From Lachnospiraceae bacterium (GTDB taxonomy: Bacteria > Bacillota > Clostridia > Lachnospirales > Lachnospiraceae): a DNA stretch of 64,000 bases. Under the pieces are notes generated by a model, which saw nothing but the letters and a program-made list of their open reading frames with translations, was not told where the DNA came from and ran no database searches. Every line of letters begins with the position of its first letter. The stretch's first letter is position 1. Below, one piece after another: positions 5,235 through 56,519 of this stretch. Both the position numbers and the translations under genes were made by a program. The stretch is taken from the NCBI GenBank assembly GCA_028689585.1, contig JAQVCW010000017.1, positions 1 to 64,000 of the forward strand. Direction: 5' to 3'.

Positions 5235-5247
5235 TCACAACACCACA

Positions 5248-25917: not shown

Positions 25918-25957
25918 AAGACTGTGACGAGTTTTCTATGAAAATTTGGCACGCAGT

Positions 25958-26000
25958 GTCAGCTCGTTTGCTGAAGGAAAATTTAAGAGGGCTGATATTC
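25958..26000 (+). repeat. Dispersed hairpin repeat, copy A (degenerate)
   Basis: GTCAGCTCGTTTG ... GGGCTGATATTC aligns with the other copies, and the upstream TTTTCTATG (25932-25940) is shared with copy D. Stem pairing is weaker than in the others. It ends 20 bases before the cbiL start. Confidence 0.6.
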
Positions 26001-26020
26001 TGAAAAAATGGGAGAAAAAT

Positions 26021-26704
26021 ATGACGGGAAAATTATATGGACTGGGTATCGGTCCGGGAGATCCGGAGCTGCTGACGCTGAAAGCGGTACGGCTCATTCA
26101 GGAGTGTGATGTGATCGCGGTGCCGGGAACCGCAGCGGAGGAAACAACAGCCTACCGTATCGCAGTGCAGGCGGTTCCGCAGATGGCAGAAAAAGAACTG
26201 CTTGCGGTGGAAATGCCCATGACGAAAGATGCGGTCTGTTTGGAACAGAGTCATGATGCGGCGGCGGATGTGGTGGAAGCCTGTCTGAAGGCCGGAAAAA
26301 ATGTGGCATTTCTTACACTGGGCGATCCCACGGTATATTCCACTTATCTTTATGTACATAAACGGATTGCAGCCAGGGGATATGAAACAGAAATTGTCAG
26401 CGGCATCACTTCTTTCTGTGCAGTTGCAGCCAGACTGAACATGGGCTTGACTGAAAAATCGGAAATGCTGCATGTAATTCCGGCTTCTTATCAGATAGAA
26501 GAGGCGCTGGGGCTGCCCGGGACCAAGGTTCTGATGAAAGCCGGCAGGAAAATGGCAGAAGTGAAAAAGCTGATTAAAAAGAGAAAATCCGGGGCAGTGA
26601 TGATTGAAAACTGCGGTATGCCGGATGAAAAACAGTATAACTCAGTGGACGAGATACCGGATCAGGCCGGTTACTATTCCCTGATCATTGTAAAGGAGAA
26701 CTGA
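26021..26704 (+). CDS. cbiL: Cobalt-precorrin-2 C20-methyltransferase
   Basis: CbiL transfers the second corrin-specific methyl group, to C20. I chose ATG 26021 (MTGKLYGLGIGPGDPELLTL) because it gives the canonical GxGxGDPxL start; an in-frame extension to 25946 reads through the hairpin repeat. The 227-residue protein has the tetrapyrrole-methylase motifs: the P-loop-like GIGPGDPEL at 8-16, FLTLGDPTVYSTY near 97-109, and VSGITSFCAVAARL near 125-138. The stop TGA overlaps the region just before the cbiF start (the two are almost contiguous). Part of the cbi operon. Confidence 0.94.
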   Translation: MTGKLYGLGIGPGDPELLTLKAVRLIQECDVIAVPGTAAEETTAYRIAVQAVPQMAEKELLAVEMPMTKDAVCLEQSHDAAADVVEACLKAGKNVAFLTLGDPTVYSTYLYVHKRIAARGYETEIVSGITSFCAVAARLNMGLTEKSEMLHVIPASYQIEEALGLPGTKVLMKAGRKMAEVKKLIKKRKSGAVMIENCGMPDEKQYNSVDEIPDQAGYYSLIIVKEN

Positions 26705-27463
26705 ATGGTACATTTTGTAGGAGCAGGATCCGGTGCGCCGGATCTGATTACCGTAAGGGGATTAAATTTATTGAAACAGGCGGATGTTATCATCTATGCC
26801 GGTTCACTGGTGAATCCGCAGCTATTGGAGGACAGAAAAGAAGGCTGTCAGGTATATAACAGCGCCACCATGACCCTGGAAGAGGTGATGGAGGTGATGC
26901 TTCAGGCAGAAAGAGAAGGGAAAAATATCGTCCGGCTGCATACCGGAGACCCCTGCCTCTATGGAGCGATCCGGGAGCAGATGGATATTCTGGAAGAAAA
27001 TCAGATCACGTATGATTATTGTCCGGGCGTCAGCTCTTTTTGCGGTGCGGCTTCTGCACTGAACCTGGAATATACGCTTCCCGAGGTTTCGCAGAGTGTA
27101 ATTATCACAAGAATGGCAGGCCGCACACCGGTTCCGGAGCGGGAAGAGATCGCAGCCTTCGCGGCACATCACGCAACTATGGTGATTTTTCTGAGCACAG
27201 GCATGCTGGAGCAGTTGTCCCGGCGTCTGATGGCAGGAGGATATGAAGCGGACACACCGGCGGCAATCGTCTACAAGGCAACCTGGGAGGATGAGGCATC
27301 CTTTGTATGCACAGTGGCCACCCTGGCTGAGACGGCAGCGAAGAATCGGATTACGAAAACGGCATTGATCATTGTGGGGGATGTGGTCAGCCACATCCAT
27401 TATCAGCGTTCTGAATTGTATCATCCGGAATTTACCACAGAATTTCGCAAAGCAAAGGTATGA
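26705..27463 (+). CDS. cbiF: Cobalt-precorrin-4 C11-methyltransferase
   Basis: CbiF methylates C11. The 252-residue protein starts immediately after cbiL (MVHFVGAGSGAPDLITVRG, the typical GAGxGxPDLIT motif) and has LHTGDPCLYGAIREQM near 78-93 and CPGVSSFCGAASALN near 105-119, all CbiF-like, followed by the ITRMAGRTPVPERE region that distinguishes C11-methyltransferases. The ribosome-binding site AAAGGAG is inside the cbiL end. The cbiG start overlaps its stop in an ATGA arrangement, so translation is coupled. Confidence 0.95.
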   Translation: MVHFVGAGSGAPDLITVRGLNLLKQADVIIYAGSLVNPQLLEDRKEGCQVYNSATMTLEEVMEVMLQAEREGKNIVRLHTGDPCLYGAIREQMDILEENQITYDYCPGVSSFCGAASALNLEYTLPEVSQSVIITRMAGRTPVPEREEIAAFAAHHATMVIFLSTGMLEQLSRRLMAGGYEADTPAAIVYKATWEDEASFVCTVATLAETAAKNRITKTALIIVGDVVSHIHYQRSELYHPEFTTEFRKAKV

Positions 27464-28623
27464 GAGCAGGGATTGTCTGCTTCACAGAAAATGGTGTGAA
27501 GACGGCTCTGAAAATAAAGGAACTGCTGTTTTCTGTTCTGGCAGAAAGCGGGGAATCCGGGCTCATTCCGGAAACAAACAGCATAGAAGCGGTGTGCTGC
27601 AGCAGAAATTTTCCGGGGGAAAATAAGGTTCCTGCAAAGGACGGCGATCCCGGGCAAAATTTGAAGCAAAAAGATATTCAGAAACTGGAAATCCCGCTGA
27701 AGGAATGGACAAAGCAGCAGTTTTCCAACCGTGATGTGGTGATTTTTGTAGGGGCGGCAGGGATTGCGGTGCGCAGTATTGCTCCATTTCTTCAGAGCAA
27801 GGCCACAGATCCGGCGGTTCTGGTGGCGGATGAAAAAGGAACCTTTGTCATTTCGCTTCTTTCCGGTCATATCGGCGGCGCAAATGAGCTGTGCAGCCAG
27901 CTTGCAAAACGGCTGCAGGCCATCCCAGTGATCACCACAGCCACAGATCTGAATGGGAAATTTGCAGTGGATGTCTTTGCGAAGCAGAATGGAATGTGGA
28001 TTGATGATATGGTCTGTGCAAAAGAAATATCGGCGGCTATTCTTTACGGAGAGAAAATTGGATTTTCCAGTGATTTTCCGGTTACGGGAAGCCTGCCGGA
28101 AGAACTGCAGGCGGTTCAAAATGGCAAAACAGAGTCTGCTGCCAAAACAGAGGACTGCTATGAGATCCATATTACCTGGGATGCTTCGAAAAAATCCGTA
28201 CCGGGATGCAGGAGGCTCTGTCTGGTTCCAAAAACCATCGTGCTGGGCGTCGGCTGTAAAAAAGGGAAAACAGAAGCAGAGCTGGAGAAAGCGGTGCTGG
28301 ATACACTTCATGATCGGAAGATATCCATTCATGCGGTGAAAAAAATCTGCAGCATTGATATCAAGGCGAAGGAAGCGGGGCTTCTGGAATTTTGCGAAAA
28401 ATACCATCTGGCATTTGAGACATATCCGGCGGATGCACTTCGGAAGGTGAAGGGGGAATTTTCCGCGTCTGAATTTGTCAGCAGTCAGGTAGGCGTAGAT
28501 AATGTGTGTGAGCGGAGCGCAGTGCTTGGAAGCGGCGGCGGACAGTTGATACAGAGGAAAAAGGCATGCGGCGGGATTACAGTGGCGGCAGCCTGTGAAG
28601 ACAGGAGGATTTATTTTGAATAA
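27460..28623 (+). CDS. cbiG: Cobalt-precorrin-5A hydrolase
   Basis: CbiG opens the delta-lactone of cobalt-precorrin-5A and releases acetaldehyde, the ring-contraction step peculiar to the anaerobic route. The 387 residues show an N-terminal domain with FVGAAGIAVRSIAPFL near 92-107 and SLLSGHIGGANELCSQLA near 131-148, and a C-terminal domain starting around LGVGCKKGKTEAEL near 262 and ending with GGITVAAAC. A spacer region of low conservation lies between them. The start overlaps the cbiF stop; the end overlaps the cbiH start. Length and order are usual for a full CbiG. Confidence 0.95.
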   Translation: MRAGIVCFTENGVKTALKIKELLFSVLAESGESGLIPETNSIEAVCCSRNFPGENKVPAKDGDPGQNLKQKDIQKLEIPLKEWTKQQFSNRDVVIFVGAAGIAVRSIAPFLQSKATDPAVLVADEKGTFVISLLSGHIGGANELCSQLAKRLQAIPVITTATDLNGKFAVDVFAKQNGMWIDDMVCAKEISAAILYGEKIGFSSDFPVTGSLPEELQAVQNGKTESAAKTEDCYEIHITWDASKKSVPGCRRLCLVPKTIVLGVGCKKGKTEAELEKAVLDTLHDRKISIHAVKKICSIDIKAKEAGLLEFCEKYHLAFETYPADALRKVKGEFSASEFVSSQVGVDNVCERSAVLGSGGGQLIQRKKACGGITVAAACEDRRIYFE

Positions 28624-29347
28624 AATTATGGTAGTGGGCATAGGACCCGGAGAATATGAACAGATGACCATACGGGCGGCCGAAGCGCTGAAATCCTGTG
28701 ATGTGATTGTGGGATATACAGTATACGTGGAGCTGGTGAAAGAGCATTTTCAGGGAAAAGAATTTCTGACGACACCAATGCGTAAGGAAACACAGCGGTG
28801 CGTTCTGGCGTTTGAGGAAGCACAGAAGGGAAAGACCGTGGCTATGATCTGCAGCGGAGATGCAGGGGTATATGGTATGTCAGGCCTGATACTGGAAATC
28901 GGAAAGGATTATCCACAGACAGAGGTGGAAGTGATTCCGGGAGTGACGGCAGCACTGAGCGGTGCGGCGGTGCTGGGGGCTCCGCTGATCCATGATTTCT
29001 GCCTGATCAGCCTCAGTGACCTGCTGACACCATGGGAAAAGATTGAGAAGAGACTGCTTCTGGCAGCAGAAGCGGATTTTGCAATCTGTCTCTATAATCC
29101 TTCCAGCAGAAAAAGGCATGACTATCTGCAGAAAGCCTGCGATCTGATGCTGCAGCACAAATCCCGGGATACGGTGTGCGGAATTGTGATGAATATCGGC
29201 CGGGAGGGGGAGAACATGAAAATCATGAGTCTGGAGCAGCTAAGAGACGCTCAGGTGGACATGTTTACCACGGTCTTTATCGGAAATTCACAGACCAGAA
29301 AGATCAATGGCAGAATGGTGACGCCGAGGGGATATCATTATGAATAA
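28616..29347 (+). CDS. cbiH: Cobalt-factor III / precorrin-3B C17-methyltransferase
   Basis: CbiH methylates C17 and contracts the macrocycle. The most likely start is TTG 28616, seven bases after AGGAGG (28603-28608); GTG 28595 has no ribosome-binding site, and ATG 28628 is possible. The protein (about 243 residues) has GIGPGEYEQMTIRA near 8-21, ICSGDAGVYGMSGL near 79-92, and IPGVTAALSGAAVLGAPL near 107-124, the last being typical for this family. It overlaps cbiG by 8 bases, and the next gene by 8 bases (ATG 29340), so three genes are translationally coupled. Confidence 0.93.
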   Translation: MNKIMVVGIGPGEYEQMTIRAAEALKSCDVIVGYTVYVELVKEHFQGKEFLTTPMRKETQRCVLAFEEAQKGKTVAMICSGDAGVYGMSGLILEIGKDYPQTEVEVIPGVTAALSGAAVLGAPLIHDFCLISLSDLLTPWEKIEKRLLLAAEADFAICLYNPSSRKRHDYLQKACDLMLQHKSRDTVCGIVMNIGREGENMKIMSLEQLRDAQVDMFTTVFIGNSQTRKINGRMVTPRGYHYE

Positions 29348-31337
29348 GCTGCTGCTTTTTGCCGGAACGACAGAAGGCCGGGAACTGGCGGAATTTCTGG
29401 ATCGTCAGGGGGTGGCCTGTGATGTGAGCACTGCCACGGAATACGGCGGTCATCTGCTGGAGGAAAGTACAGCAGGGCATGATATTCACAGCGGCCGGCT
29501 GTCTGAGGAGGAAATGGAAGGTCTGATCGATCAGGAGCAGATTACCATGGTGGTGGATGCCACTCATCCTTATGCAGTTTTGGTATCGGACAATATCAGA
29601 GCGGTCTGCCGGAAGAAAGGCTGTACTTATCTGCGTCTTCTGCGGGAGGAAGAGCCGGCGGATAATGCATGCGTTTTTGTGCCTTCCGTGGAAGCGGCAG
29701 TGGAATATCTTCAGCAGACCTCAGGGAATGTCCTGGCAGCCACCGGAAGCAAGGAACTGAAGAAATATACTGCTCTGCCAGATTATCAGACCAGAGTTTT
29801 TGCAAGGGTGCTGTCCACGCCTGCGGCGGTATGGGAATGTGCAGAATTGGGCTTTCAGGGAAAAAATCTGATCTGTATGCAGGGGCCTTTTGATGAAGAA
29901 CTGAATTATGCCATGATGAAACAGATCGGTGCCAGATTTTTGGTAACAAAGGAATCCGGCAAGACGGGAGGATTTCCGGAAAAAATGCGGGCTGCCAGAA
30001 GAGCCGGCGCAAAGCTGGTGGTGGTGGGGCGTCCGGGGGAGGAAGAGGGATACTCCATGCCTGAAATCCGCCGGATCTTATGTGAAGCCCTGTCGATTCG
30101 GGTAAAACGCAATATTGCTCTGGCCGGGATTGGAATGGGCACTCCGGAGAGCATGACATCCCAGGTGCGGACAATCTGCGAAAAAGCGGATGTGCTGATC
30201 GGCGCCAGACGTATGCTGGACTGTGTAACGTGGATGAACAAGCCGGAGTATCCGGAGTACCGGGCGGAAAAGATCCGCGCTTATCTGGACGCGCATCCGG
30301 AGTATGAAAATGTTGTGCTCCTATTGTCCGGTGATGTGGGATTTTACAGCGGTGCAAAAAAACTGCTGGACTGCTTTGCCGGGGAAGAACCGGAAGTTTA
30401 CTGCGGTATTTCTTCTGTGGTCTATCTGTGCAGCAGGCTGCATACCTCCTGGGATGATGTAAAGCTGGTCAGTGTACACGGCAGAACCCAGAATTTGATC
30501 GGAGCGGTCTGCACCCATCAAAAAGTATTTGCACTGATCGGAAAGGAAGAAAGCTTTCGAACTATGTGCGGTGCACTGCTGGAATATGGACTGGGACATG
30601 TGAAGCTGTCTGTGGGATGCCAATTGTCCTATCCGGATGAAAAAATATGGAAGGGCTCACCTGCGGAATTACAAAATCAAAACACGGGGGATTTGACAGC
30701 GGTTCTGATCGAAAATGAGCAGATTTGTTCGGTGGTCACTCACGGAATAGAGGATGAGGCATTTGAAAGGGCAAAGGTGCCCATGACAAAAGCGGAGATT
30801 CGCAGCATTTCTCTTTCCAAACTTCAACTGACAGGGAACAGTGTGATCTATGATGTGGGGGCGGGGACGGGCTCCGTATCCATTGAGATGGCGCTGCAGT
30901 CGGTGGACGGCATGGTATACGCGGTGGAGAAAAAACCGGAAGCGGTGGAGCTCATCCGCAGAAATCAGAAAAAGTTCGGTGTTTCCAATCTCCAGATCAT
31001 CGAAGGATCCGCTCCGGAAGCACTGCAGTCTCTTCCGGTTCCCACGCATGCCTTTATCGGCGGCAGTTCAGGTAATCTGCGGGAAATCATGGAATGTCTG
31101 CTGGAGAAAAATCCGGATATCCGGATCGTGATCAATACGATTACCCTGGAATCAGCGGCAGAGGCACTGAAGTGTCTGAAAGAACTGCCGGTGGCCTGCC
31201 AGGATATTGTCTCTGTCAGTGTGGCAAAGGCAAAGTGTGCCGGGGATTACCATCTGATGATGGGACAAAATCCGGTGTATATTTTTTCCTGCGGAAAAGG
31301 AATTGGCGGATGCGGAGAGATTACTGAAAATATATGA
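29340..31337 (+). CDS. Triple fusion: precorrin-6A reductase, C5,15-methyltransferase and decarboxylase (CbiJ-CbiE-CbiT)
   Basis: The 665 residues join three enzymes of consecutive corrin steps. Residues about 1-250 are CbiJ/CobK (reductase): FAGTTEGRELAEFL at 7-20, VDATHPYAV near 72-80, and AATGSKEL near 138. Residues about 255-470 are CbiE (C5 methylation): LAGIGMGTPESMT near 260 and LLSGDVGFYSGAKKLL near 329. Residues about 480-665 are CbiT (C15 methylation and decarboxylation): MTKAEIRSISLSKLQL, then the SAM motif YDVGAGTGSVSIEMA near 503-517. CbiE-CbiT (CobL) fusions are common; adding CbiJ in front is less so. The frame is open throughout, with no stop or shift, and it overlaps cbiH. 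The product could channel intermediates. Confidence 0.93.
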   Translation: MNKLLLFAGTTEGRELAEFLDRQGVACDVSTATEYGGHLLEESTAGHDIHSGRLSEEEMEGLIDQEQITMVVDATHPYAVLVSDNIRAVCRKKGCTYLRLLREEEPADNACVFVPSVEAAVEYLQQTSGNVLAATGSKELKKYTALPDYQTRVFARVLSTPAAVWECAELGFQGKNLICMQGPFDEELNYAMMKQIGARFLVTKESGKTGGFPEKMRAARRAGAKLVVVGRPGEEEGYSMPEIRRILCEALSIRVKRNIALAGIGMGTPESMTSQVRTICEKADVLIGARRMLDCVTWMNKPEYPEYRAEKIRAYLDAHPEYENVVLLLSGDVGFYSGAKKLLDCFAGEEPEVYCGISSVVYLCSRLHTSWDDVKLVSVHGRTQNLIGAVCTHQKVFALIGKEESFRTMCGALLEYGLGHVKLSVGCQLSYPDEKIWKGSPAELQNQNTGDLTAVLIENEQICSVVTHGIEDEAFERAKVPMTKAEIRSISLSKLQLTGNSVIYDVGAGTGSVSIEMALQSVDGMVYAVEKKPEAVELIRRNQKKFGVSNLQIIEGSAPEALQSLPVPTHAFIGGSSGNLREIMECLLEKNPDIRIVINTITLESAAEALKCLKELPVACQDIVSVSVAKAKCAGDYHLMMGQNPVYIFSCGKGIGGCGEITENI

Positions 31338-31528
31338 ATGACAGGAAAAAGTGACAGAAGCAGGCAAAAGTGACAGAAGCAGGCAAAAGTAACAGGAGCA
31401 GGAAAAAGCAACAGAAGCAGGAAAATGCAATAGGAGCAGGCAAAAGCAACAGAAGCAGGAAAAAGCAACAGGAGCAGGAAAGAGCAACAGAAGCAGGAAA
31501 AAGCAACAGAAGTAAGCAGTTGAAAACA
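31338..31528 (+). repeat. Purine-rich 19-bp tandem repeat between cbiJET and cbiA
   Basis: About nine copies of a 19-bp unit (AAAAGCAACAGAAGCAGGA and variants) run from about 31341 to 31519 with constant 19-base spacing. The plus strand has almost no T or C apart from the fixed C positions. The unit is not a multiple of three, so it cannot be a coding repeat. There are no unique spacers, so it is not a CRISPR. Confidence 0.92.
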
Positions 31529-31559
31529 GATGAAAGTGAGCGCAATCAGGGAGGAGCAG

Positions 31560-32984: not shown

Positions 32985-33061
32985 TATTCGCACAGGCGGT
33001 GCACGGAAGCGGAAGAAAGTGCCGGGGAGATTACTGGGAAAAATTCAGGAGCGGGCGGTTT

Positions 33062-33240: not shown

Positions 33241-33253
33241 AAGGGAACAGGGC

Positions 33254-34225: not shown

Positions 34226-34261
34226 TATTTACAGTATTTGCGATGATGGCTTTTCAATAGA

Positions 34262-34500
34262 AAAACGAAAGAGCGTCAAGGAAGAGCATTAAGAAAAAGC
34301 GTCAAGAAAAAGTATCAAGGAAGAGCATTAAGAAAAAGTATCAGGGAAGAGCATCAAGGAAAAATATCGGGGAAATGTATTAAGGAAAAGCATAAAAAAA
34401 GCATTAGGGAAATAAAAGAATTAAGCAGATGAATTAAGAAAAAGCATTAAGAAAAAGCATTAAGAAAAAGCATAAAGAAATGAAACAAAGCAAAAAAATC
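34262..34500 (+). repeat. Purine-rich 13-bp tandem repeat between cbiB and cobD
   Basis: The 13-bp units AAGAAAAAGCATT / AAGGAAGAGCATC and variants follow one another from about 34270 to 34487, interrupted by a few shorter ones. The plus strand is rich in A and G. The unit length excludes a coding repeat. It fills most of the 322-base gap before cobD. No promoter or terminator is evident within it. Confidence 0.9.
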
Positions 34501-34547
34501 AAGCAAACAAATAACAGAACAAAATAGCATAAGAAAGAGAGCAGACA

Positions 34548-35585: not shown

Positions 35586-35623
35586 TAGATAAAACAGAGC
35601 ATCCGAAAAGGAGAGACAGGAAA

Positions 35624-37141: not shown

Positions 37142-37198
37142 TCAGAATAGAAGGACAGTGGAACGGTGCGGCTTTGGCACCGTGCGGGAGGAAAAAAA

Positions 37199-37921: not shown

Positions 37922-39055
37922 TTACCGGATATAGCTGTCGTCATCCATTCCCTCTAATTGAATGGTTCCGGTAGTTTCAAATTCTTCTTTCAACTGTTCG
38001 TAATCTGCTATTCTCTTTTCCAGATAGGCTTCAATATTATCCTTTGTCAGATAAATTCCAAATCCTTCCCGTGCTTCACCGCCGTACATGGTATTTACCA
38101 TAAGATCCGCAACCGCAGTGTCATAATGCTTAAAGTTGTAAAAATTGTACGGGTTTATGTTAATATCATTATAATCACTGAAATCCCATACATCCGTGAT
38201 TTCCACGATTTCACGCAGATAATCATAATATCGGGAACATTCGTATAAATACCGTTCTGTAAGAAAGCTGGCGCCAATCACGACCTTGAGCGTGACGTTA
38301 TGCTCATCACAGTAAGCCTTCAGCTCCCGGAGCGCTGCGATATTGTCATCAAATGCTGTAAGAGAGTTGGCTTTCTGGTTGAAAAGACTTTTTAAATATT
38401 TTGTTGAACTTTGAGTAACGTACTTTGCTATAAAAGCATCCGGATCTTTTTCAAACAGCCGGATAGATTTGGCCCAGTGTCTTGTGCCGGTTGCCACATC
38501 ATCATAAGTTCCGTCGGTGACATCCTTCTTTTGACTGGCAGTCTCTAAAGCAGTTTTGATATCGGTCATTAAGAAGTTCAGGACTTCTTTGATCTGATCC
38601 CATTTATTGCCGGATACAATGGCCGGAACCTGATAAACGGCAGCGCCGGTGCTCTCCTTTTCGTAAGCCTTTACTTCGAAGCTGCTCAGGTGTAAGGTGA
38701 TCTCTGAAATATCCGTATTGTCAATTAAGTACTTTCCATAGGTCAGATAATCAGAAAAATTTCCCTGATTGCTGTAAAAATTGTAATATCGTTTGCCGGT
38801 ATAAGAGGAAAGCAGCTCTGTGCTCAGAACGCCTCCCTTGGATCCTCCCAGGACAACTGCATCAAACTGATCTGAATTTTCAGTAAAATAATCTGCCTTG
38901 ATCGCTCTGGAATAGTCTTCGGAGTCGAATAAATCCTCCCCTTTTGTCAAAGTAAAATAACCGAAAGGATCGACAATATAGTTCAACAGCATAAAACTGC
39001 CGATACCCAGAAATAATAAGATAAAAAATATAGATAACCAATGTTTGCTTTTCAT
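37922..39055 (-). CDS. DltD/AlgX-like single-pass membrane protein (acyl-transfer partner)
   Basis: The 377-residue protein has one N-terminal membrane helix (about 6-28, IFFILLFLGIGSFMLLNYIV) and an extracellular domain with SGNH-like features: DAVVLGGSKGG near 64-74 for the first block, and a C-terminal NFYNFKHYD segment. Such proteins accompany MBOAT acyltransferases and complete O-acylation of cell-surface polymers (known for DltD/DltB and AlgJ-X/AlgI). Its MBOAT partner is directly upstream on the same strand, 69 bases away. GGAGGAG precedes the start ATG 39055. The substrate cannot be told from sequence. Confidence 0.65.
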   Translation of the reverse strand: MKSKHWLSIFFILLFLGIGSFMLLNYIVDPFGYFTLTKGEDLFDSEDYSRAIKADYFTENSDQFDAVVLGGSKGGVLSTELLSSYTGKRYYNFYSNQGNFSDYLTYGKYLIDNTDISEITLHLSSFEVKAYEKESTGAAVYQVPAIVSGNKWDQIKEVLNFLMTDIKTALETASQKKDVTDGTYDDVATGTRHWAKSIRLFEKDPDAFIAKYVTQSSTKYLKSLFNQKANSLTAFDDNIAALRELKAYCDEHNVTLKVVIGASFLTERYLYECSRYYDYLREIVEITDVWDFSDYNDININPYNFYNFKHYDTAVADLMVNTMYGGEAREGFGIYLTKDNIEAYLEKRIADYEQLKEEFETTGTIQLEGMDDDSYIR

Positions 39056-39072
39056 TTTGTCTCCTCCAAACT

Positions 39073-39120
39073 TGCAGCATCAGCCCATCCTAAATTTGTC
39101 TTTGACAAATAGGCTGACAC
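39073..39120 (-). repeat. Dispersed hairpin repeat, copy B
   Basis: Read on the minus strand, TCAGCCTATTTGTC-AAA-GACAAATT and then GGATGGGCTGATGCTG. The inner stem ATTTGTC/GACAAAT and outer stem CAGCCTAT/ATGGGCTG are intact. It stands immediately before the GGAGGAG of the gene starting at 39055. Confidence 0.85.
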
Positions 39121-39124
39121 AAAA

Positions 39125-40552
39125 CTAAAACTGGAAATACAGGAACTGTACTACTTTATTCATCTGTGTAATGCATAAAAACAGAAGAAGAGCAGCAAAG
39201 ACCGCCGTCCAGATATTTGCTTTGAATTTTTCTGTCATGACCTTTGAATTCGGCAGGAACCAGCAGATGATTATGCCGATCAGCAGGCGCAGCCCGCTGG
39301 ATTTATGCCAGAGGATAAAGTTCCATATGGAGGAGAACGCAGCAGTGATACTGTCTCCGAGGGAAGTAAAATTAAACATTCCCTGATAAACATACCAGGC
39401 ATCGGAAAAGGAGTTCGATACGAACAGCACTCTGGCAAGGATAACACCCACTGCGGTCAGCGGAAAGGCGAGCCAAAACGGAAATTTCATATTTTTCCGT
39501 TTCATCCAGGAAGCAGTACATACGAAAAATCCATTCACAAGTCCCCATACCACGAAGGTCCAGCCGGCACCGTGCCAGAAACCGGACACCAAAAAGGTAA
39601 CCATGGTAGCAATATAATAGTTTCTCCATTTGCAGTCTTTTTTGTAGACATTGCGGAAGATGTAAGTGCTCAGAAATCGGGAGAGGGTGATATGCCATCT
39701 TCTCCAGTAATCCTGAAAATTCCGTGCTTTATAAGGGGAATCAAAGTTCTGGGGAATGATGATATTGAACATCAGGCCCAGGCCGATAGCCATATCGGCA
39801 TAACCGGACAGATCAAAATAATAGGAAATCGTATATTCAATGGAGCAGAACCAGGTCTGCAGCAGATCCAACCCGGGGGCTATGGCACCAAAAAATTCCT
39901 GAGCATTGGTGGTCATAGGGTCTGCCAGCAGTATTTTCTTGGTACAGCCGATGGCAAACAGGAAGAGTCCCTTTGCAATATTATCATAATTCAGCTTTAA
40001 ATTCGCTTCATTTTCAAACTGAGGCACTACCTCTGCATGATGGATGATCGGTCCGACGATCAACTGCGGGAAAAACGTGATGAACAGAAGATAATTGATG
40101 ATATCGTACTGTTTTGTTTCACCGCGGTAGGAATCCACAAGGAAAGCAATCAACTGGAAGGTAAAGAAGGAAATACCGATGGGCAGTACAATATGCTTCA
40201 GCGTATAGTCGCTGCCGGTAATTAAGTTAAGATTCTCGATAAAGAAATCGGTGTATTTATAATAGCCCAGCAGGCCGATATTGCCGGCCAGACCAATGGC
40301 CAGGAGCAGTTTTTTCTGGATGCCCTGGTTTCCTTCCATCCGTGTCATGCTGTTGCCGATGATGTAGTTTCCAACGATGCTGGCCAGAAAAAAAGCAAAG
40401 AAATCCGAACTGCCCTGACCATAAAAATAGAGAGACATGACAATCAGCCAGATTTTGGAAACCGTGAAGTAATGGAACCGATTCAAAAGAAAATAAACAA
40501 TAAAAGTGATCGGTAAAAATAAGAAAATAAAGTTATATGTAGAAAAGATCAT
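39125..40552 (-). CDS. MBOAT-family O-acyltransferase (AlgI/DltB-like)
   Basis: The 475-residue protein is a multi-pass membrane enzyme that moves acyl groups across the membrane to surface polymers. It begins with the AlgI-like MIFSTYNFIFLFLPITFIVY, has the QLIVGPIIHHAEVVPQF stretch near 160, the DYWRRWHITLSRFLSTYIFR motif near 280-300, and the catalytic His in SGFWHGAGWTFVVWG near 322-336. About eleven membrane segments fit the family. The start follows CAGGAGAA. It lies between the carboxyltransferase gene and the DltD-like partner, all on the minus strand, so probably in one transcript. Confidence 0.88.
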   Translation of the reverse strand: MIFSTYNFIFLFLPITFIVYFLLNRFHYFTVSKIWLIVMSLYFYGQGSSDFFAFFLASIVGNYIIGNSMTRMEGNQGIQKKLLLAIGLAGNIGLLGYYKYTDFFIENLNLITGSDYTLKHIVLPIGISFFTFQLIAFLVDSYRGETKQYDIINYLLFITFFPQLIVGPIIHHAEVVPQFENEANLKLNYDNIAKGLFLFAIGCTKKILLADPMTTNAQEFFGAIAPGLDLLQTWFCSIEYTISYYFDLSGYADMAIGLGLMFNIIIPQNFDSPYKARNFQDYWRRWHITLSRFLSTYIFRNVYKKDCKWRNYYIATMVTFLVSGFWHGAGWTFVVWGLVNGFFVCTASWMKRKNMKFPFWLAFPLTAVGVILARVLFVSNSFSDAWYVYQGMFNFTSLGDSITAAFSSIWNFILWHKSSGLRLLIGIIICWFLPNSKVMTEKFKANIWTAVFAALLLFLCITQMNKVVQFLYFQF

Positions 40553-42229: not shown

Positions 42230-42432
42230 TCCATTTTATTTCCATATTTTTCATAAATGTTAAATCTGGTTAAGAAAAAATTAATTCTAATGTAATATAA
42301 CATGGAGGAAAAAAAGATTCAAGGATTTTCACTCAGATTTTATGAAAGAACTGTGAACACAGTAAAATAAATATAAAAAAATCATCTGGACTTAAATTGG
42401 AACAGGGAGTAAAATAGTACGGAATATGCATT

Positions 42433-42476
42433 ATCGGCTCATTTGTCGGGGACAAAATTGGGATGGGCTGATGTTC
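42433..42476 (+). repeat. Dispersed hairpin repeat, copy C
   Basis: TCGGCTCATTTGTC-GGG-GACAAAATT, then GGATGGGCTGATGTTC. The inner stem TTTGTC/GACAAA is perfect. It ends 16 bases before the start of the mnhE-like gene, just 5' of its GGGAGGG. The remaining bases of the gap (42230-42432) are A+T-rich and hold the divergent promoter region without a clear single promoter. Confidence 0.85.
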
Positions 42477-42492
42477 AAAGCGGGAGGGCAAT

Positions 42493-43065
42493 ATGTACTT
42501 ATTTTTAATGGCAATATGGATTATTTTAAATGGAAGAATTACCCTGGAAGTACTGGCTTTCGGTCTGGTGATTTCGGCGGCGCTTTACTGGTTCATCTGT
42601 AAATTCATGGATTATGGAATCGGGAAGGATATACGGATACTGGATCAGATCTTTTCCATTATCCGGTACGCTTTTGTACTTGTGCTGGAAATCATCAAGG
42701 CGAACCTGGCCGTGATCCATTTAATTATCTCGGGAAAAGATCAGATCGAACCGGCACTGGTCAGCTTTCGGACAGATCTTAAGACCGATACTGCAAAGGC
42801 ATTTATGGCCAATGCCATTACATTGACTCCGGGAACGATCACGGTTACGCTCACCGAAGATGAATATGTGGTGCATTGCCTGGATAAGGATCTGGCTTAC
42901 GGCATGAATGATACGGTAATCAGCCGGATGCTGATAGATATGGAAGAAAAAAGCACGGCCGGAATGCCGGAGGATACACCAAAACATACGACAGAAGAAA
43001 CAGGACAGTCCGGACAGCGGCTGAAAAATGAGTCCGGAAAAAGCCGGAAAGGAAGGAAGAAATGA
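42493..43065 (+). CDS. mnhE: Mrp/Mbh-type antiporter subunit E
   Basis: This is the first gene of a ten-gene antiporter module. MnhE/MrpE is a small membrane subunit required for assembly of the multisubunit Na+(K+)/H+ antiporter. The 190 residues have two or three N-terminal membrane segments, the central DLKTDTAKAFMANAITLTPG motif near 95-114 and GTITVTLTEDEYVVHCLD near 115-132, both typical for MnhE, and a polar C-terminal extension of about 40 residues that is longer than usual. The start follows GGGAGGG. The stop overlaps the mnhF start by 4 bases. Confidence 0.9.
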   Translation: MYLFLMAIWIILNGRITLEVLAFGLVISAALYWFICKFMDYGIGKDIRILDQIFSIIRYAFVLVLEIIKANLAVIHLIISGKDQIEPALVSFRTDLKTDTAKAFMANAITLTPGTITVTLTEDEYVVHCLDKDLAYGMNDTVISRMLIDMEEKSTAGMPEDTPKHTTEETGQSGQRLKNESGKSRKGRKK

Positions 43066-44997: not shown

Positions 44998-44998
44998 G

Positions 44999-46879: not shown

Positions 46880-46893
46880 GAGGGAAAAAGAAA

Positions 46894-48378: not shown

Positions 48379-48394
48379 AAAGGAGGAATCACAA

Positions 48395-49873: not shown

Positions 49874-49884
49874 GAGGGAACGAG

Positions 49885-51978: not shown

Positions 51979-52067
51979 ATGAGGACGTCCGTAAACTTGA
52001 GGTGAAAACGGGTTGTAATTCCAATCTGATTGTGCTAATCTTAGGAAAGATTTTAAATTTCATAGAG

Positions 52068-52304
52068 AGCATTCGGTGTCGGATGCAGTGTCTGCTGCAT
52101 CTGATGAAAAGGGAAACAGGTGAGAATCCTGTACGAACTCGTCACTGTATCCATAGGGAGCAAAAAAGCGCGGCAGCAGCCGTCAAAGCCACTGGGAAAG
52201 ATTTTAGCTTCAGTCCATTTGCGCAGGCAGATTCTGGATGAGCTGATATTCCGGGAAGGCTGCAGAATGCGAAGAACTATAAGTCAGGAGACCTGCCAGA
52301 TGCT
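52068..52304 (+). promoter_or_regulatory. Cobalamin riboswitch of the uptake/tetrapyrrole operon
   Basis: Closing stem AGCAT (52068-52072) / ATGCT (52300-52304). Core AAAGGGAAACAGGTGAGAAT then CCTGTACGAACTCGTCACTG at about 52108-52147, a GCCACTGGGAAA block near 52188, and the 3' part AAGTCAGGAGACCTGCC (52281-52297) match cobalamin riboswitches. It is longer than usual because a copy of the dispersed hairpin repeat (52209-52252) lies inside. Upstream bases 51979-52067 show no clear promoter. Confidence 0.85.
52209..52252 (+). repeat. Dispersed hairpin repeat, copy inside the riboswitch
   Basis: TTCAGTCCATTTGC-GCAG-GCAGATTC, then TGGATGAGCTGATATTCC aligns with copies D-F over its whole length. 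It lies between the CACTGGGAAA segment and the GGAAGGCTGCAG segment of the riboswitch, where peripheral stems vary between riboswitches. Confidence 0.75.
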
Positions 52305-52377
52305 GTACGGAAGCGTAAGCTTCAAACCACGAGTAACTGGTCGTATTTACTGAGAAAATTCAGAGCTTGTTCTTAGT

Positions 52378-52412
52378 ATGCCCTTTTACCATTGGTAGAA
52401 GGGCATTTCTTG
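52378..52412 (+). terminator. Terminator of the second cobalamin riboswitch
   Basis: ATGCCCTTTTACC pairs with GGTAGAAGGGCAT (13 bp, one G-U) around ATT, followed by TTCTTGT. Located 73 bases after the riboswitch and before the first gene, as expected for its expression platform. Confidence 0.8.
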
Positions 52413-52416
52413 TCGG

Positions 52417-52487
52417 ATTTTCTATGGAAACGTGACATGCAGCGTCAGCCCATTTGCCGCAGGCAGATTTAAAATGGACTGATGCTC
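52417..52487 (+). repeat. Dispersed hairpin repeat, copy D
   Basis: Left flank ATTTTCTATGG and TGACATGCAGCG, then core TCAGCCCATTTGCC-GC-AGGCAGATT and AATGGACTGATGCTC. It ends 20 bases before the start of the binding-protein gene, right in front of its AAGGAG. Confidence 0.85.
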
Positions 52488-52507
52488 AAAGCTTAAGGAG
52501 AGAAAAA

Positions 52508-54085
52508 ATGAAGCATTTGAAGAGGATAGCAGCGGAAGCCTTATTTTTGATGATGATGGGAAGCCTGTCAGCGGGATGCTATGGAGAAAATGCATCGAAA
52601 GCAGATCAGGAACAGACATTGGCGGACGGCATTTATCAGGCGGAGGTGACACTGAGCGGAGGCTCCGGAAGAGCCGGCATTGAATCTCCGGTAAAGCTGA
52701 CCGCAGAAAATGGGCAGATTACGGCAGATATTATCTGGAGCAGTTCTTATTATGACTATATGCTGGTGGACGGCGAAAAATATGAAGCGGTAAATACGGA
52801 GGGCAGCTCAGAGTTTTTGATTCCGGTTCTGGGATTTGATTATGAGATGCCTGTGACCGCGGATACAGTGGCCATGAGTACCCCCCATGAGATTGAATAT
52901 ACGCTGAACTTTGATTTTTCTTCGGTTGCGGAGTGGACGGATACGGCTGCCTCATCGAATGGTGAAGCAGTGCCGGATGCGGCGGCTGAAGAAAAAGAAA
53001 GCAGAGGAGCCGGAGCGGATGAGTCAGGGACAGAGATCCCAGGTCTGACTTTTGATCACACCATGCCGCTGAAATATGCTCAGAATTTTACTGTGGAATA
53101 TTATCAGGGCGGATATGCATTGATTACGCTTCGGGAGGATGGACGTTTTCTGGTGGTGCCGGAGGGCATGAGCGCACCGGAAGGTCTGGATGAGGATATC
53201 GTGGTGCTGCAGCAGCCGATACAGAATATCTATCTGGTAGCCACATCCGCCATGGATTTTTTTGCATCTCTGGAGGGGATGGATTCCATCAGGCTGTCGG
53301 GCACCAGGGCAGACGGCTGGTATGTGGAAGAGGCCAGGGCAGCCATGGAAGCCGGTAAAATTCTTTATGCAGGAAAATACAACGCTCCGGATTATGAACA
53401 GATCGTGGCCCAGAACTGCGGCCTTTCTATTGAATCCACGATGATCTACCACACCCCGGAAGTGAAGGAAAAGCTGGAAGAGTTTGGTATTCCGGTGCTG
53501 GTGGAGCATTCCAGCTATGAAGCGCATCCTCTGGGAAGGGCTGAGTGGATCAAGCTGTATGGTGTGCTGCTGGGGAAAGAAGAACTGGCGGACACTCTGT
53601 TTGAGGCACAGACAGAAAAGCTGAGTGCGGTGGAGAGTCAGGAAAGTACCGGAAAGACGGTGGCTTTTTTCTACATCAGCTCCAACGGATATGTGAATGT
53701 GCGTAAATCAGGGGATTACGTGGCAAAGATGATCGAGCTGGCGGGAGGAAGTTATATTTTCCCGGATCTGGGCGAGGGAGACAATGCACTGTCTACCATG
53801 AATATGCAGATGGAGGATTTTTATGCAGGTGCAAAAGATGCGGACTTCATCATTTACAACAGTACCATTGACGGAGAATTGCAGAACATATCGGAGCTTT
53901 TGAAAAAGAGTGAACTGCTGGCCGGTTTTAAGGCGGTGAAGAATGGAAATGTATGGTGCACCACCCAGAATCTGTTTCAGAAGACAACGGGACTGGCGGA
54001 TATGATCGTGGATATACATACCATGTTAAGCAGCGGGGATCCGGTGAATGAGCAGTATACTTATATGTACCATATGGCAGACTGA
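52508..54085 (+). CDS. Corrinoid/iron-complex-type ABC transporter binding lipoprotein with extra N-terminal domain
   Basis: The likely ligand-capturing part of a B12 uptake system, judged from the riboswitch in front. ATG 52508 follows AAGGAG; the frame upstream (to 52454) is the translated repeat. A lipoprotein signal (FLMMMGSLSAGC, Cys near residue 23) anchors it outside the membrane. Residues about 35-135 form an unfamiliar beta-rich domain starting DGIYQAEVTLSGG; a low-complexity linker follows; residues about 180-525 are a class III binding protein with IYLVATSAMDFFASL, YAGKYNAPDYEQI and EHSSYEAHPLGRAEW. The 526-residue length is much above the usual 300-350. Iron-siderophore or heme specificity cannot be excluded. 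Confidence 0.82.
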   Translation: MKHLKRIAAEALFLMMMGSLSAGCYGENASKADQEQTLADGIYQAEVTLSGGSGRAGIESPVKLTAENGQITADIIWSSSYYDYMLVDGEKYEAVNTEGSSEFLIPVLGFDYEMPVTADTVAMSTPHEIEYTLNFDFSSVAEWTDTAASSNGEAVPDAAAEEKESRGAGADESGTEIPGLTFDHTMPLKYAQNFTVEYYQGGYALITLREDGRFLVVPEGMSAPEGLDEDIVVLQQPIQNIYLVATSAMDFFASLEGMDSIRLSGTRADGWYVEEARAAMEAGKILYAGKYNAPDYEQIVAQNCGLSIESTMIYHTPEVKEKLEEFGIPVLVEHSSYEAHPLGRAEWIKLYGVLLGKEELADTLFEAQTEKLSAVESQESTGKTVAFFYISSNGYVNVRKSGDYVAKMIELAGGSYIFPDLGEGDNALSTMNMQMEDFYAGAKDADFIIYNSTIDGELQNISELLKKSELLAGFKAVKNGNVWCTTQNLFQKTTGLADMIVDIHTMLSSGDPVNEQYTYMYHMAD

Positions 54086-54200
54086 AAACCATATGGCGGA
54101 CTGAAAAAACAGACCAGAATCACTATCTGGAAAACAAAGGAACGTGTGTGCGGTCACAGGATAAAGCAGAAATACAAAAGAGCAGCGGGAAAGGAAGAAA

Positions 54201-55244
54201 ATGGAGATGGCAGAAGAGAACTTAAATAAAAAAAGGCATACGAAATACCGGTATTACGGTTCCTTTCTGATTCTGGCACTGCTGCTGGTGATTTTGTTTT
54301 TATGGAATATTAATTCCGGCAGCATTTCCATTTCGGTGCCGGAGATCTTCCGGATTATTTTTCAGCAAAAGGGAGAGGAAACGGCCATGAATATTATCTG
54401 GCAGATCCGGCTTCCCCGTATCCTGTCCGCAATCCTGCTGGGCGGGGCGCTGTCCGTTTCCGGATTTCTGCTCCAGACCTTCTTTCATAATCCGATTGCA
54501 GGCCCCTTTGTGCTGGGAATTTCCTCCGGAGCCAAGCTGGTGGTGGCGCTGGTTATGATCTTTTTGCTGGGACGGGGATGGACGGTCAGCTCCTGGGCAC
54601 TGATTCTGGCCGCTTTCCTGGGCTCGATGGTATCCATGGGATTTGTGCTGCTGGTATCTAAAAAGGTGCATCAGATGTCCATGCTGGTGATCAGCGGAGT
54701 TATGATCGGCTATATCTGCTCTGCAATTACGGATTTTGTGGTCACCTTTGCAGATGATTCGAATATTGTAAATCTTCATAACTGGTCCCTGGGGAGTTTC
54801 TCCGGAATGACCTGGGAGAATGTGGAGGTAATGGCCATGATTGTGCTGGCCGGAGTGATCGCAGCTTTTTTTCTCTCAAAGCCCATGGGGGCATTTCAAC
54901 TGGGGGAGGCGTATGCTCAGAATATGGGAGTCAACGTCGCCCTGTTCCGGGTAATGCTGATCCTGCTTTCCAGCATTTTATCTGCCTGCGTCACCGCCTT
55001 TGCCGGACCCATCTCCTTTGTGGGAATTGCGGTTCCCCATCTGGTGAAAAGTATATTAAAAACAGCGAAGCCGCTGCTGGTCATTCCTGCCTGCTTCCTG
55101 GGCGGAGCCGTGTTCTGCCTGTTCTGCGATATGATCGCAAGGACGGTATTTGCACCGTCGGAATTGAGCATCAGCTCCGTGACCGCAGTATTTGGCGCAC
55201 CCGTGGTGATTTTTATCATGATAAAACGTCAGAAATTAAACTGA
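54201..55244 (+). CDS. FecCD/BtuC-family ABC permease
   Basis: The membrane component of the uptake system, about ten helices in 347 residues. Family motifs: IRLPRILSAILLGGALSVSG near 67-86, FLLQTFFHNPIAGPFVLGIS near 87-106, GVMIGYICSAITDF near 166, HNWSLGSFSGMTWENV near 193, and GPISFVGIAVPHLVKSIL near 270-287, the last being the coupling-helix region that contacts the ATPase. ATG 54201 follows GGAAAGGAAG. Its stop TGA (55242-55244) is already part of hairpin repeat copy E. BtuC- and FecCD-type transporters share this fold, so the substrate rests on the riboswitch context. Confidence 0.9.
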   Translation: MEMAEENLNKKRHTKYRYYGSFLILALLLVILFLWNINSGSISISVPEIFRIIFQQKGEETAMNIIWQIRLPRILSAILLGGALSVSGFLLQTFFHNPIAGPFVLGISSGAKLVVALVMIFLLGRGWTVSSWALILAAFLGSMVSMGFVLLVSKKVHQMSMLVISGVMIGYICSAITDFVVTFADDSNIVNLHNWSLGSFSGMTWENVEVMAMIVLAGVIAAFFLSKPMGAFQLGEAYAQNMGVNVALFRVMLILLSSILSACVTAFAGPISFVGIAVPHLVKSILKTAKPLLVIPACFLGGAVFCLFCDMIARTVFAPSELSISSVTAVFGAPVVIFIMIKRQKLN

Positions 55245-55296
55245 CATGCAGCGTCAGTCCATTTGCCGGAGGCAAATTCAGGATGGACTGATGTTC
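55242..55296 (+). repeat. Dispersed hairpin repeat, copy E (best preserved)
   Basis: TGACATGCAGCG, then TCAGTCCATTTGCC-GGA-GGCAAATT and GGATGGACTGATGTTC. Outer stem CAGTCCAT/ATGGACTG and inner stem TTTGCC/GGCAAA are both perfect. It begins in the permease stop codon and ends 17 bases before the next start. Confidence 0.9.
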
Positions 55297-55313
55297 AAAT
55301 AAAGGATAAAAAG

Positions 55314-56411
55314 ATGAAAAACAAATGTTATTTTTATACTGATAAAATGACGGTGGGGTATGATGGAAAGCCGCTCATAAAAGAAATTAAAATAGAACTG
55401 CTGCGGGGACAGATCCTTACGCTGATCGGTCCAAACGGTGCCGGCAAATCCACTATTTTAAAAAGTATCACGAAACAATTAAAAATTCTGGGAGGCTGTG
55501 TCTATCTGGATCAGAAACAGATGAAGGAACTGTCCGGAAAGGAGACCGCCAGAAAGATGGCAGTGGTCCTTACTGACCGGATGAAGCCGGAGCTGATGAC
55601 CTGTGAGGATGTGGTGGCGGCAGGCCGCTATCCCTATACCGGAAGCCTGGGGATCTTAAATGAGGAGGACCGGGCGAAAACAAGAGAGGCCCTGGAACTG
55701 GTGCAGGCTCTAGAGCTGGCTGACCGGGATTTTTCGGCAATCAGTGACGGTCAGAAGCAGCGGATCCTTCTGGCGAGAGCGATCTGCCAGGAGCCGGAGA
55801 TGATTGTGCTGGACGAGCCCACCTCATTCCTGGATATTCGCCACAAGCTGGAATTTCTCAGCATCTTAAAAAAACTGGTGCGGGAAAGACAGGTCGCGGT
55901 GGTGATGTCGCTTCATGAACTGGATCTGGCCCAGAAAATATCGGATCTGATCATCTGCATTAAGGGCGAATACGTGGACAAAAGCGGAACTCCGGAAGAA
56001 ATCTTTACGGACGATTATATCAGCAGCCTGTATGAAATCAAAAAAGGAAGCTATCATTCGAATTTCGGATGCGTGGAGCTTCCGGCTCCTTCGGGAAAAC
56101 CGGAGGTGTTCGTGATCGCGGGGGGCGGCAGCGGCATTTCCTGTTACCGCCGTCTGCAAAGAGAGGGAATTCCCTTTATTACCGGTGTCCTGCATGAAAA
56201 TGATATTGATTATGAAGCGGCCAGAACTCTGGCCTGTGAAGTTATCGCAGAGAGTGCTTTCGAGCCGGTCAGTGAGGCACATTATATCGCCGCTCTTGAA
56301 AAAATGAAGCAGTGCAGAGAAGTAAAATGCTGTCTGGATCATTTCGGGACAGGGAATGCGGCGAATCAAAGGCTTCTGGCGGAGGCGGAAAAACAGGGGA
56401 AATTAATATAG
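55314..56411 (+). CDS. ABC transporter ATPase (BtuD/FecE-like) with C-terminal extra domain
   Basis: The ATPase of the uptake system. ATG 55314 follows AAAGGA; the frame to 55263 runs through the repeat. Of 365 residues the first about 255 are a complete ABC domain: Walker A GPNGAGKST near 39-47, Q-loop region, signature ISDGQKQRILLARAI near 142-156, Walker B MIVLDEPTSFLD near 162-173, and switch His in MSLHELDLAQ near 198. The remaining about 105 residues are an added domain beginning EVFVIAGGGSGISCYRRLQ, with a glycine-rich Rossmann-like loop and a C-terminal ANQRLLAEAEKQGKL helix; I do not recognise it. A hairpin repeat separates it from the permease gene and another from hemA. Confidence 0.88.
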   Translation: MKNKCYFYTDKMTVGYDGKPLIKEIKIELLRGQILTLIGPNGAGKSTILKSITKQLKILGGCVYLDQKQMKELSGKETARKMAVVLTDRMKPELMTCEDVVAAGRYPYTGSLGILNEEDRAKTREALELVQALELADRDFSAISDGQKQRILLARAICQEPEMIVLDEPTSFLDIRHKLEFLSILKKLVRERQVAVVMSLHELDLAQKISDLIICIKGEYVDKSGTPEEIFTDDYISSLYEIKKGSYHSNFGCVELPAPSGKPEVFVIAGGGSGISCYRRLQREGIPFITGVLHENDIDYEAARTLACEVIAESAFEPVSEAHYIAALEKMKQCREVKCCLDHFGTGNAANQRLLAEAEKQGKLI

Positions 56412-56463
56412 CGCATGGAATTCAAATGTGCTATTATATTCGGAGCATAACCCAGAGAAAACC

Positions 56464-56519
56464 TGACATGCAGCGTCAGCCTATTTGCCGCAGGAAAATT
56501 TCAGGATGGGCAGATGTTC
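56464..56519 (+). repeat. Dispersed hairpin repeat, copy F
   Basis: TGACATGCAGCG, then TCAGCCTATTTGCC-GCA-GGAAAATT and GGATGGGCAGATGTTCC. The inner stem is weakened by one change; the outer stem mostly holds. It ends 56 bases before the hemA start, more than in the other copies. Confidence 0.85.

Follow-up and report, generated by a model that had tools for sequence, protein, structure and literature searches.

A structured, probably mobile repeat found in one orientation before Shine-Dalgarno sites in Lachnospiraceae

Introduction

In a 64,000-nucleotide stretch of a Lachnospiraceae genome (GenBank assembly GCA_028689585.1, contig JAQVCW010000017.1), to which we refer as "the window", a hairpin sequence recurs shortly before the start codons of several genes. 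The preliminary description of the window had set the fixed distance between hairpin and start codon against mobility, and had suggested a role in translation, mRNA processing or stability; the question raised by the locus is whether the repeat is a regulatory leader that is inherited with its genes, or a mobile element that is found at an unusual address. Here, we have examined the copies of the window, the repeat in the source genome and its relatives within the family.

Results

Copies of the repeat in the window

The six hairpin copies that had been described are real, as is the copy inside a riboswitch: all are recovered by our covariance model R1, with E-values of 2e-20 to 3e-9 for the six and 1e-4 for the riboswitch copy, and, at E up to 1, the model finds nothing before 25.9 kb, in agreement with the reported absence of copies from the first 25 kb. 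The unit consists of two hairpins, and the first of them is clear in two copies of the window: the best copy (52408..52490, plus strand; 84.7 bits, E 2e-20; fold z -2.9), which precedes a gene that starts at 52508, described as a binding lipoprotein and without an NCBIfam match at E 0.001, and a full but worn copy (25922..26003, plus strand; 75.0 bits, E 8e-18; fold z -2.5 against shuffles), which precedes cbiL (ATG at 26021; TIGR01467, 213 bits). In the other window copies, the first hairpin is reshaped or lost. It is reshaped, next to a strong second hairpin, in the copy at 55224..55299 (plus strand; 71.1 bits, E 8e-17; fold z -5.6), which is flanked by genes matched by ABC permease and ABC ATPase models: the stop codon TGA of the permease reading frame (54201-55244) falls at the second part of the copy, and the ATPase starts at 55314.

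Only the second hairpin is intact, as judged from the predicted fold, in the copy at 39072..39145 (minus strand; R1 44.3 bits, E 1e-9), which is followed by a minus-strand gene (37922-39055) that had been called DltD-like and for which NCBIfam gives no match at E 0.001. The second hairpin alone is also present in the copy at 42415..42479 (plus strand; 42.7 bits, E 3e-9; fold z -1.5), located before an mnhE-like gene at 42493 that is matched by antiporter subunit E models with scores below their cut-offs. A degenerate copy (56426..56522, plus strand; 44.5 bits, E 9e-10), whose fold is no better than that of shuffled sequences (58 of 200 shuffles equal it), is the exception in spacing, as hemA (start 56576; TIGR01035, 268 bits) starts 56 nt past its end. 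The riboswitch copy (52192..52254, plus strand; 25.4 bits) is a degenerate second hairpin without an adjoining Shine-Dalgarno (SD) site, and lies within the cobalamin riboswitch (52057-52314), in a loop that has 49 nt instead of 4 in the Rfam alignment. The window copies rank among the more worn copies of the repeat.

Architecture and copy number

The repeat unit comprises about 83 nt: the first hairpin, of 12 bp, is joined through a GYAG linker to a second, bulged one, and GTTCAA closes the unit. In good copies, the first hairpin pairs TGTCAAGTTTTC with GAAAACTTGACA and is located 5' of the hairpin that was originally noted; the noted hairpin thus stands, while the extent that had been given to the element does not, since the additional hairpin makes the unit longer. 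The GYAG tag is found at the 5' foot of the second, bulged hairpin in most copies, and reads GTAG in two relatives (G297 and G229). The element lacks inverted repeats at its ends, which read 5' GATTGTGTC and 3' GTTCAA. The source genome contains at least 150 matches to the unit (150 of 150 scored candidates) at no fewer than 122 sites, both counts being lower bounds; 21 of the 122 listed sites are tandem arrays of 2-4 units, and one weak match among the 150 (C22:44268, E 0.01) is probably due to chance. In line with the earlier remark that no familiar named element fits, there is no Rfam family for the repeat: at gathering scores, the cobalamin riboswitch is the one Rfam match of the window, and at E up to 1 Rfam gives no meaningful match at three loci.

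Placement relative to SD sites and start codons

The position just 5' of the SD, in sense orientation, is borne out across the source genome: at 105 of the 122 listed sites, an SD and a start codon 13-26 nt away follow the element, compared with 1/122 in the antisense control and 161/2440 random positions under the same criterion. The modal distance from the GTTC end to the start codon is 17 nt, and a start codon with an SD is found within 60 nt downstream at 118 of the 122 sites. The gap between element and SD is variable (0-11 nt at 108 of 113 sites), and we have found no clear target motif at the insertion sites, both of which count against insertion that prefers SDs; the shared-word length of left and right flanks, which we used to look for target-site duplication, is 3.56, against 3.28 +/- 0.12 when the flanks are re-paired (41 sites). 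The upstream gene is co-oriented at 98 of the 122 listed sites, which may, therefore, be located within transcripts. The nine downstream genes that we have checked (uppS, rapZ, pyruvate kinase, era, glyS, D-aminoacyl-tRNA deacylase, polA, nifS-like and, in G297, der) look unrelated.

Fold, covariation and exposure of the SD

Folded as RNA, the repeat is predicted to form two hairpins. In an alignment of 35 hand-picked copies from three genomes (A4, from which the partial or insertion-bearing G061 copies L102, L104, L106-L109, L111 and L112 were left out, and in which L116 is imperfectly aligned), 21 of 30 base pairs are altered on both sides among copies, amounting to 70 cells of two-sided change against 14.5 +/- 3.1 in shuffles; none of 500 shuffles is as high, and slid structures, used as a control, give at most 20. 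The compensatory stem changes that had been described are thus confirmed and, instead of random distances without covariation, both the spacing and the covariation hold.

The sense strand gives the better fold in 4 of 4 sequences tried. Among the 87 of 150 copies with exactly 83 nt (86 distinct), 90 single stem changes favour sense pairing against 61, a weak lean in a count that is not corrected for relatedness. The predicted exposure of the SD at 105 sites is 0.56 in the native sequence, 0.59 when the element is deleted (p 0.20), 0.48 when it is shuffled, once per site (p 0.004), and 0.44 when it is reversed (p 0.0001); these predicted differences are small.

Distribution and insertion history

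The repeat occurs in 20 of 397 genomes of the family, the source genome included, a patchy distribution. In G061, the architecture and the SD address are kept at 20 of 22 sites (from the 23 strongest of 57 matches), while the stems are rewritten and still paired; one of the two failing sites has a wrong boundary caused by an inserted hairpin, and the other has no start nearby. The address is also found in G244 (21/26), G297 (9/9), G433 (3/3) and G229 (8/11), and is rare or absent in G213 (5/21), G372 (0/10) and G007 (0/6); as the relatives in G213 and G372 are mostly elsewhere, the SD address is not universal. Antisense placement occurs at 0 of 95 sites in ten relative genomes pooled (101 of 107 matches; five weak G244 matches and one in G368 were left out). 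The copies of G302 have been set aside, being part of a longer repeat of about 160 nt.

Comparison of individual loci reveals sites without the element. The era loci of 15 relatives have no model match to it; in 14 of these loci the leader was also inspected visually, and the remaining one (L292) ends elsewhere, so that its leader may lie outside. At the der locus, the same anchors are separated by 106 nt in G297 and by 17 nt in G433, its sister species, where the model finds no match: the der site of G433 is empty. Moreover, seven G297 copies, on seven contigs and each before an SD, are 96-100% identical, and the two species of this one genus carry distinct sequence families of the repeat. 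The empty era and der sites and the near-identical copies point to a mobile element, not to a vertically inherited regulator; in this respect the preliminary description does not hold up, because the element, with its fixed distance, behaves as mobile in its empty sites, near-identical copies, patchy distribution and differing sequence families within one genus.

An autonomous version has not been found in G297, where the partial matches L274 and L276 look like truncated copies, not like ends of a larger element. Carriage by phages or plasmids has been rejected: an unannotated "Bacteriophage sp." clone gives one partial match, with 84% identity over 60% of the query, and there is none in plasmids or, for one exact pattern, in viral contigs.

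Discussion

The repeat is probably a mobile element that either aims at, or survives only at, the leader just before the SD. The reading that we favour, with moderate confidence, is that the repeat is very likely a small mobile element, that it probably prefers the position just 5' of SD sites for insertion, and that its predicted fold in the mRNA does not mask the SD. An enzyme supplied in trans would move the unit as RNA or in the form of a folded single strand, which would let the letters change while the fold is kept; the enzyme, or its place of work, would favour the purine-rich leader 5' of the SD in one orientation. The self-contained hairpins would insulate the SD and make a sense copy nearly harmless, while a reversed copy would hide the SD, leading to the removal of other insertions; arrays would arise through local tandem duplication. 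The element may also affect how stable the mRNA is or how it is processed, and the fixed distance, which may stem from target choice or from the loss of harmful insertions, is no proof of a regulatory role.

Selection alone could, in principle, produce the same address, if an ordinary non-autonomous repeat inserted widely and only sense copies 5' of an SD survived. The predicted hiding of the SD by the reversed element (0.44 against 0.56) agrees with this, and the copies away from SDs in G213, in G372 and in the riboswitch loop indicate that insertion is not bound to SDs; insertions behind genes, however, should be harmless, yet nearly all listed sites (118 of 122) precede a start with an SD, while BOX, RUP and SPRITE (excerpt of PMC3049150) and the GTAG REPs (excerpt of PMC3733652) do gather behind genes. 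The near-identical G297 copies, all located at SDs, can hardly have left time for selection against others, and we regard selection alone as unlikely.

Less likely still is a domesticated or positively selected leader, whose hairpins would stabilise the mRNA, set processing points or tune translation, a benefit for which insertions before genes would be kept: the conservation of fold and address across genomes, the possible location within transcripts and the more stable fold of the sense strand are what such a leader should display, but the downstream genes look unrelated and the era genes of relatives do without the element.

We consider it very improbable that a RAYT, i.e. a Y1 HUH transposase, mobilises the repeat as a REP element, even though a bulged palindrome bears the GYAG tag (GTAG in G297 and G229) at its 5' foot and the source genome has a RAYT-like gene (in L034; 74 bits with NF047646, whose cut-off is 80) with a worn copy of the repeat before it. 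At E 1e-10, RAYT relatives are present in G073, G288 and G007 but absent from ten carriers (G061, G137, G166, G213, G229, G244, G297, G302, G368 and G372), and six carriers (G166, G213, G229, G244, G297 and G433) have no Y1_Tnp (PF01797) match; both the RAYT in L034, not common to the ten other carriers, and any Y1 transposase have, therefore, been rejected as the mobiliser. A riboswitch- or attenuator-type cis-regulatory RNA, inherited with its genes, is scarcely credible in spite of the covariation and fixed leader position that are its usual signs, as it has no Rfam match, and its lineage-specific insertions, dispersed near-identical copies, tandem arrays and unrelated genes speak against it, the empty sites largely refuting it.

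Other roles have been dropped: in the one array scanned, there is nothing convincing for a promoter or terminator (one promoter-like match against 0.6 expected; no stem with T run in the two-unit array region L157 1300-1900), and a CsrA-like GGA in the bulge was abandoned because the bulge varies.

Among known repeats, MIRU elements occur as tandem copies and share the direction of their genes. They are short and apparently mobile, insert at gene starts in a manner thought to spare the expression of the host gene, and carry a reading frame coupled to the gene by a -4 nt overlap (excerpt of PMC12548453). The likeness is one of placement, namely insertion at gene starts in the direction of the gene (here 105/122 sense against 1/122 antisense), while the element described here stops short of the SD, leaving 13-26 nt to the start codon at these 105 sites. 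The GTAG REPs are also high-copy intergenic palindromes, with the GYAG tag at the bulged-hairpin foot as the likeness here, but REPs are 20-40 bp long, mostly downstream of genes and at varying distance from the next reading frame (excerpt of PMC3733652), whereas our repeat is directly upstream of start codons, in carriers of which ten lack a RAYT and six a Y1 enzyme. The pneumococcal BOX (which is modular), RUP and SPRITE are likewise small, structured and dispersed, and their over-representation between convergent genes (excerpt of PMC3049150) is the opposite of the address found here.

Correia elements of Neisseria are described as mobile, as lying predominantly immediately upstream of genes, as acting through carried promoters and as inverting, and the consulted part of PMC10969869 contains no statement on SD distance; the single promoter-like match in one array here differs from this. 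MITE-like repeats in other genomes of the family (G008, G378, G400 and G402) bear a hairpin like our second one, but they are longer, lack the first hairpin, have ends that look like inverted repeats (GTAACAGTT...) and, in the copies read (uncounted), are not at SDs. With MITEs in general, our repeat shares its non-autonomous, dispersed and, between relatives, insertion-polymorphic nature, but not terminal inverted repeats. We have found no description of an SD-targeted repeat in the open-licence literature searched.

We propose, tentatively, a new class of mobile element, a two-hairpin unit that would read gene direction and target the ribosome-binding leader by non-Y1 machinery, and that would have kept fold and address in about eight genera, all of one family, while its sequence was rewritten. 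This machinery might act on RNA or on a folded single strand. The TCAA near the 3' end is reminiscent of the right cleavage site of IS608.

The published small bacterial repeats that we have checked for placement are mostly behind genes (excerpts of PMC3049150 and PMC3733652); the SD leader, if our reading is true, is an unusual address for a mobile element. A one-orientation address before more than 100 SDs would imply either machinery that senses the starts of transcripts or of translation, or an RNA insulator that comes without cost to the host gene. It also carries a warning: covariation together with a fixed leader position, the signature by which riboswitches are recognised, can arise from a mobile element.

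Structure and fold of the element

The covariance-model search of the window has recovered the six hairpin copies of the preliminary description and the copy in the cobalamin riboswitch, all in sense, with no copy before 25.9 kb, in agreement with the claim that the first 25 kb hold none. The reported hairpin is present, but the unit extends further: a hairpin of ~12 bp (HP1) precedes, across the linker TGCAGC, a second hairpin (HP2; outer stem GTCAGCCC/GGGCTGAT, inner stem ATTTGCC/GGCAAAT, bulge on the 3' side), and GTTCAA forms the 3' end. Most of the window copies are worn, and the predicted fold of the one before hemA does not stand out from those of its shuffles. The riboswitch (52057-52314) precedes a cluster coding for a BtuC-like permease and an ABC ATPase, and a degenerate copy now sits within its terminal loop. 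Elsewhere in the window are two minisatellite-like arrays (31304-31544 and 34239-34538; periods of 19 and 13 nt), and a 41-nt stretch with CCCCATCAGCGTAAAAACTGGTGGGG that occurs twice, 2 kb apart, at 90% identity (5239-5279 and 7303-7343), perhaps as two terminators.

The compensatory stem changes noticed in the window are borne out across 35 copies from three genomes (18 from G061, 14 from G000, the source genome, and 3 from G007, of the same genus), where 21 of the 30 pairs have changed on both sides. Cells with two-sided change number 70, against 14.5 +/- 3.1 in shuffles, which kinship among sequences can beat even without structure, and at most 20 in slid structures; moreover, whole stems are rewritten between copies (TCAGCCCAT/ATGGGCTGA, TCCGCTCAT/ATGAGCGGA, GCCACGACA/TGTCGTGGC). 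Because of the slide control and this rewriting, there is little doubt, despite the kinship, that the stems are truly paired. Among 86 distinct full-length G000 copies, pairing is kept in 73 stem pairs changed on both sides and broken in 13. The predicted fold of four sequences is stronger in sense (-39 to -41 kcal/mol) than in antisense (-32 to -35 kcal/mol), the base of HP2 has two conserved G.U pairs that are possible in the sense strand only, and single stem changes in the full-length G000 copies weakly favour sense pairing (90 vs 61). Covariation alone fits both an RNA and a DNA strand mobilised in folded form.

Position of the element in the source genome

Across G000 (4.14 Mb, 65 contigs, the window being on C50), at least 150 matches to the covariance model occur, all 150 scored candidates matching, at 122 sites: 101 single, 15 double, 5 triple and 1 quadruple. 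Read by eye, the array spacers look as though the first bases of the right flank had been fused to the last bases of the left flank, the pattern expected if the arrays arose by local tandem duplication. On contig C11, two sites occur twice at an interval of 37,117 bp (59502/96619 and 84879-85033/121996-122150), flanks included without a difference, through either direct duplication of a large segment or an artefact of the assembly.

For each site, we have taken the nearest downstream start codon that has a Shine-Dalgarno site (SD) and opens an ORF of 50 codons or more, counting the distance from the end of GTTC. The start codon lies at 13-26 nt in 105 of the 122 sites (mode 17), as compared with 161 of 2440 random positions (20 per locus) and with 1/122 on the antisense side; it lies within 60 nt at 118/122, and several of the remaining sites, read by eye, show either a weak SD or a further partial repeat ahead of it. 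The “fixed distance” proposed earlier is thus tight, yet not constant: the SD begins 0-11 nt past the end of the element at 108 of 113 sites. A co-oriented gene lies upstream at 98 sites, with its stop codon within the element at 18 of these; a divergent gene lies there at 8 sites, and 16 are unassigned.

Distribution and probable mobility in the family

The model R1, built from 36 copies (34 from G000 and 2 from a Lachnospiraceae MAG), matches 3 of 61 genomes at E 1e-3: G000, G007 and G008, all of one genus. The broader R2, with 11 candidates scored per genome, matches at least 20 of 397 family genomes, G000 included (E 1e-4, strict filters). With other stems, the two-hairpin architecture lies 13-26 nt before a start codon preceded by an SD in G061 (20/22 sites), G297 (9/9), G433 (3/3), G244 (21/26), G229 (8/11), G368 (3/5), G137 (4/8), G166 (1/1) and G073 (1/1), seldom in G213 (5/21), and never in G372 (0/10) or G007 (0/6). 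Antisense placement at such starts is found at 0/22 sites in G061 and at 0/95 over the ten genomes of this list other than G061 and G007.

In G008, G378, G400 and G402, only an HP2-like hairpin occurs, inside longer repeats, while in G007 a ~300-nt repeat of three copies (L069, L071, L073; ~95% identity) encloses the two-hairpin unit. An extra hairpin or ~50-nt segment occupies the HP2 loop or the linker at L102, L106, L107, L109 and L111 of G061 and at L318, L327-L329, L331 and L332 of G244, as if hairpin modules were exchangeable.

The era gene of G000 carries one full and one partial copy. Of the 16 genomes searched, G007 gave no era match; in the other 15 relatives, two of them at 91-92% protein identity, the era locus has no R2 match, and all 14 leaders readable by eye are empty. 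In front of der, G297 carries a copy and has 106 nt between two anchors that lie 17 nt apart in its congener G433 (89% protein identity). The G433 repeat belongs to a different sequence family; some HP1 sequences are nearly the same in different genera, which suggests horizontal passage.

The GYAG tag recalls REPs, but is insufficient for a REP/RAYT system, which we have rejected: ten other carriers have no relative of the G000 RAYT-like gene at E 1e-10, and G166, G213, G229, G244, G297 and G433 have no Y1_Tnp profile match. Such matches occur in the carriers G061, G073, G137, G368, G372 and G000, and a relative of the gene in each of G073, G288 and G007. In G000 (contig C26; L034, 1-720 and 2220-2440), the RAYT-like gene directly follows a worn copy, amid many GGGGACGGTTC / GAACCGTCCCC repeats.

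Comparison with known repeats and proposed origin of the address

Rfam holds no match, in line with the earlier statement that no named element fits. The nearest published logic is that of MIRU, described as apparently mobile and inserting at start codons while sparing expression (PMC12548453), but MIRU, in that account, overlaps the start codon, which the G000 element does not. Correia elements are reported to be found mainly right in front of genes and to bring their own promoters (PMC10969869), which means that an upstream address is no novelty in itself; in the open-licence literature we have found no description of a repeat with a conserved two-hairpin fold that lies against the SD in sense only.

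Predicted SD exposure at the 105 sites is 0.56 for the native leader and 0.59 after deletion of the element; it is 0.48 after shuffling and 0.44 after reversal. In this model the sense element seems to insulate the SD, which a reversed one would mask in part. Insulation can explain the orientation bias; it does not account for the scarcity of the element behind genes. The address has two surviving readings, choice of the place by the machinery or tolerance of insertions at this place alone. Of three explanations, we place first targeting of SD leaders combined with insulation. The seven G297 copies, 96-100% identical and on seven contigs, look young and all sit at SDs, which points to targeting. 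Second is selection alone, with insertions tolerated only 5' of the SD and lost elsewhere; the predicted hiding of the SD by a reversed element favours it, but it explains neither the position of these G297 copies nor the shortage of copies downstream of genes, the place in which BOX, RUP and SPRITE repeats (PMC3049150) and GTAG REPs (PMC3733652) are reported to gather. Domestication of the element comes third. Under the combination of targeting and insulation, a mobilising machinery would choose the place just 5' of the SD, and the element, lying in sense, would insulate that SD.
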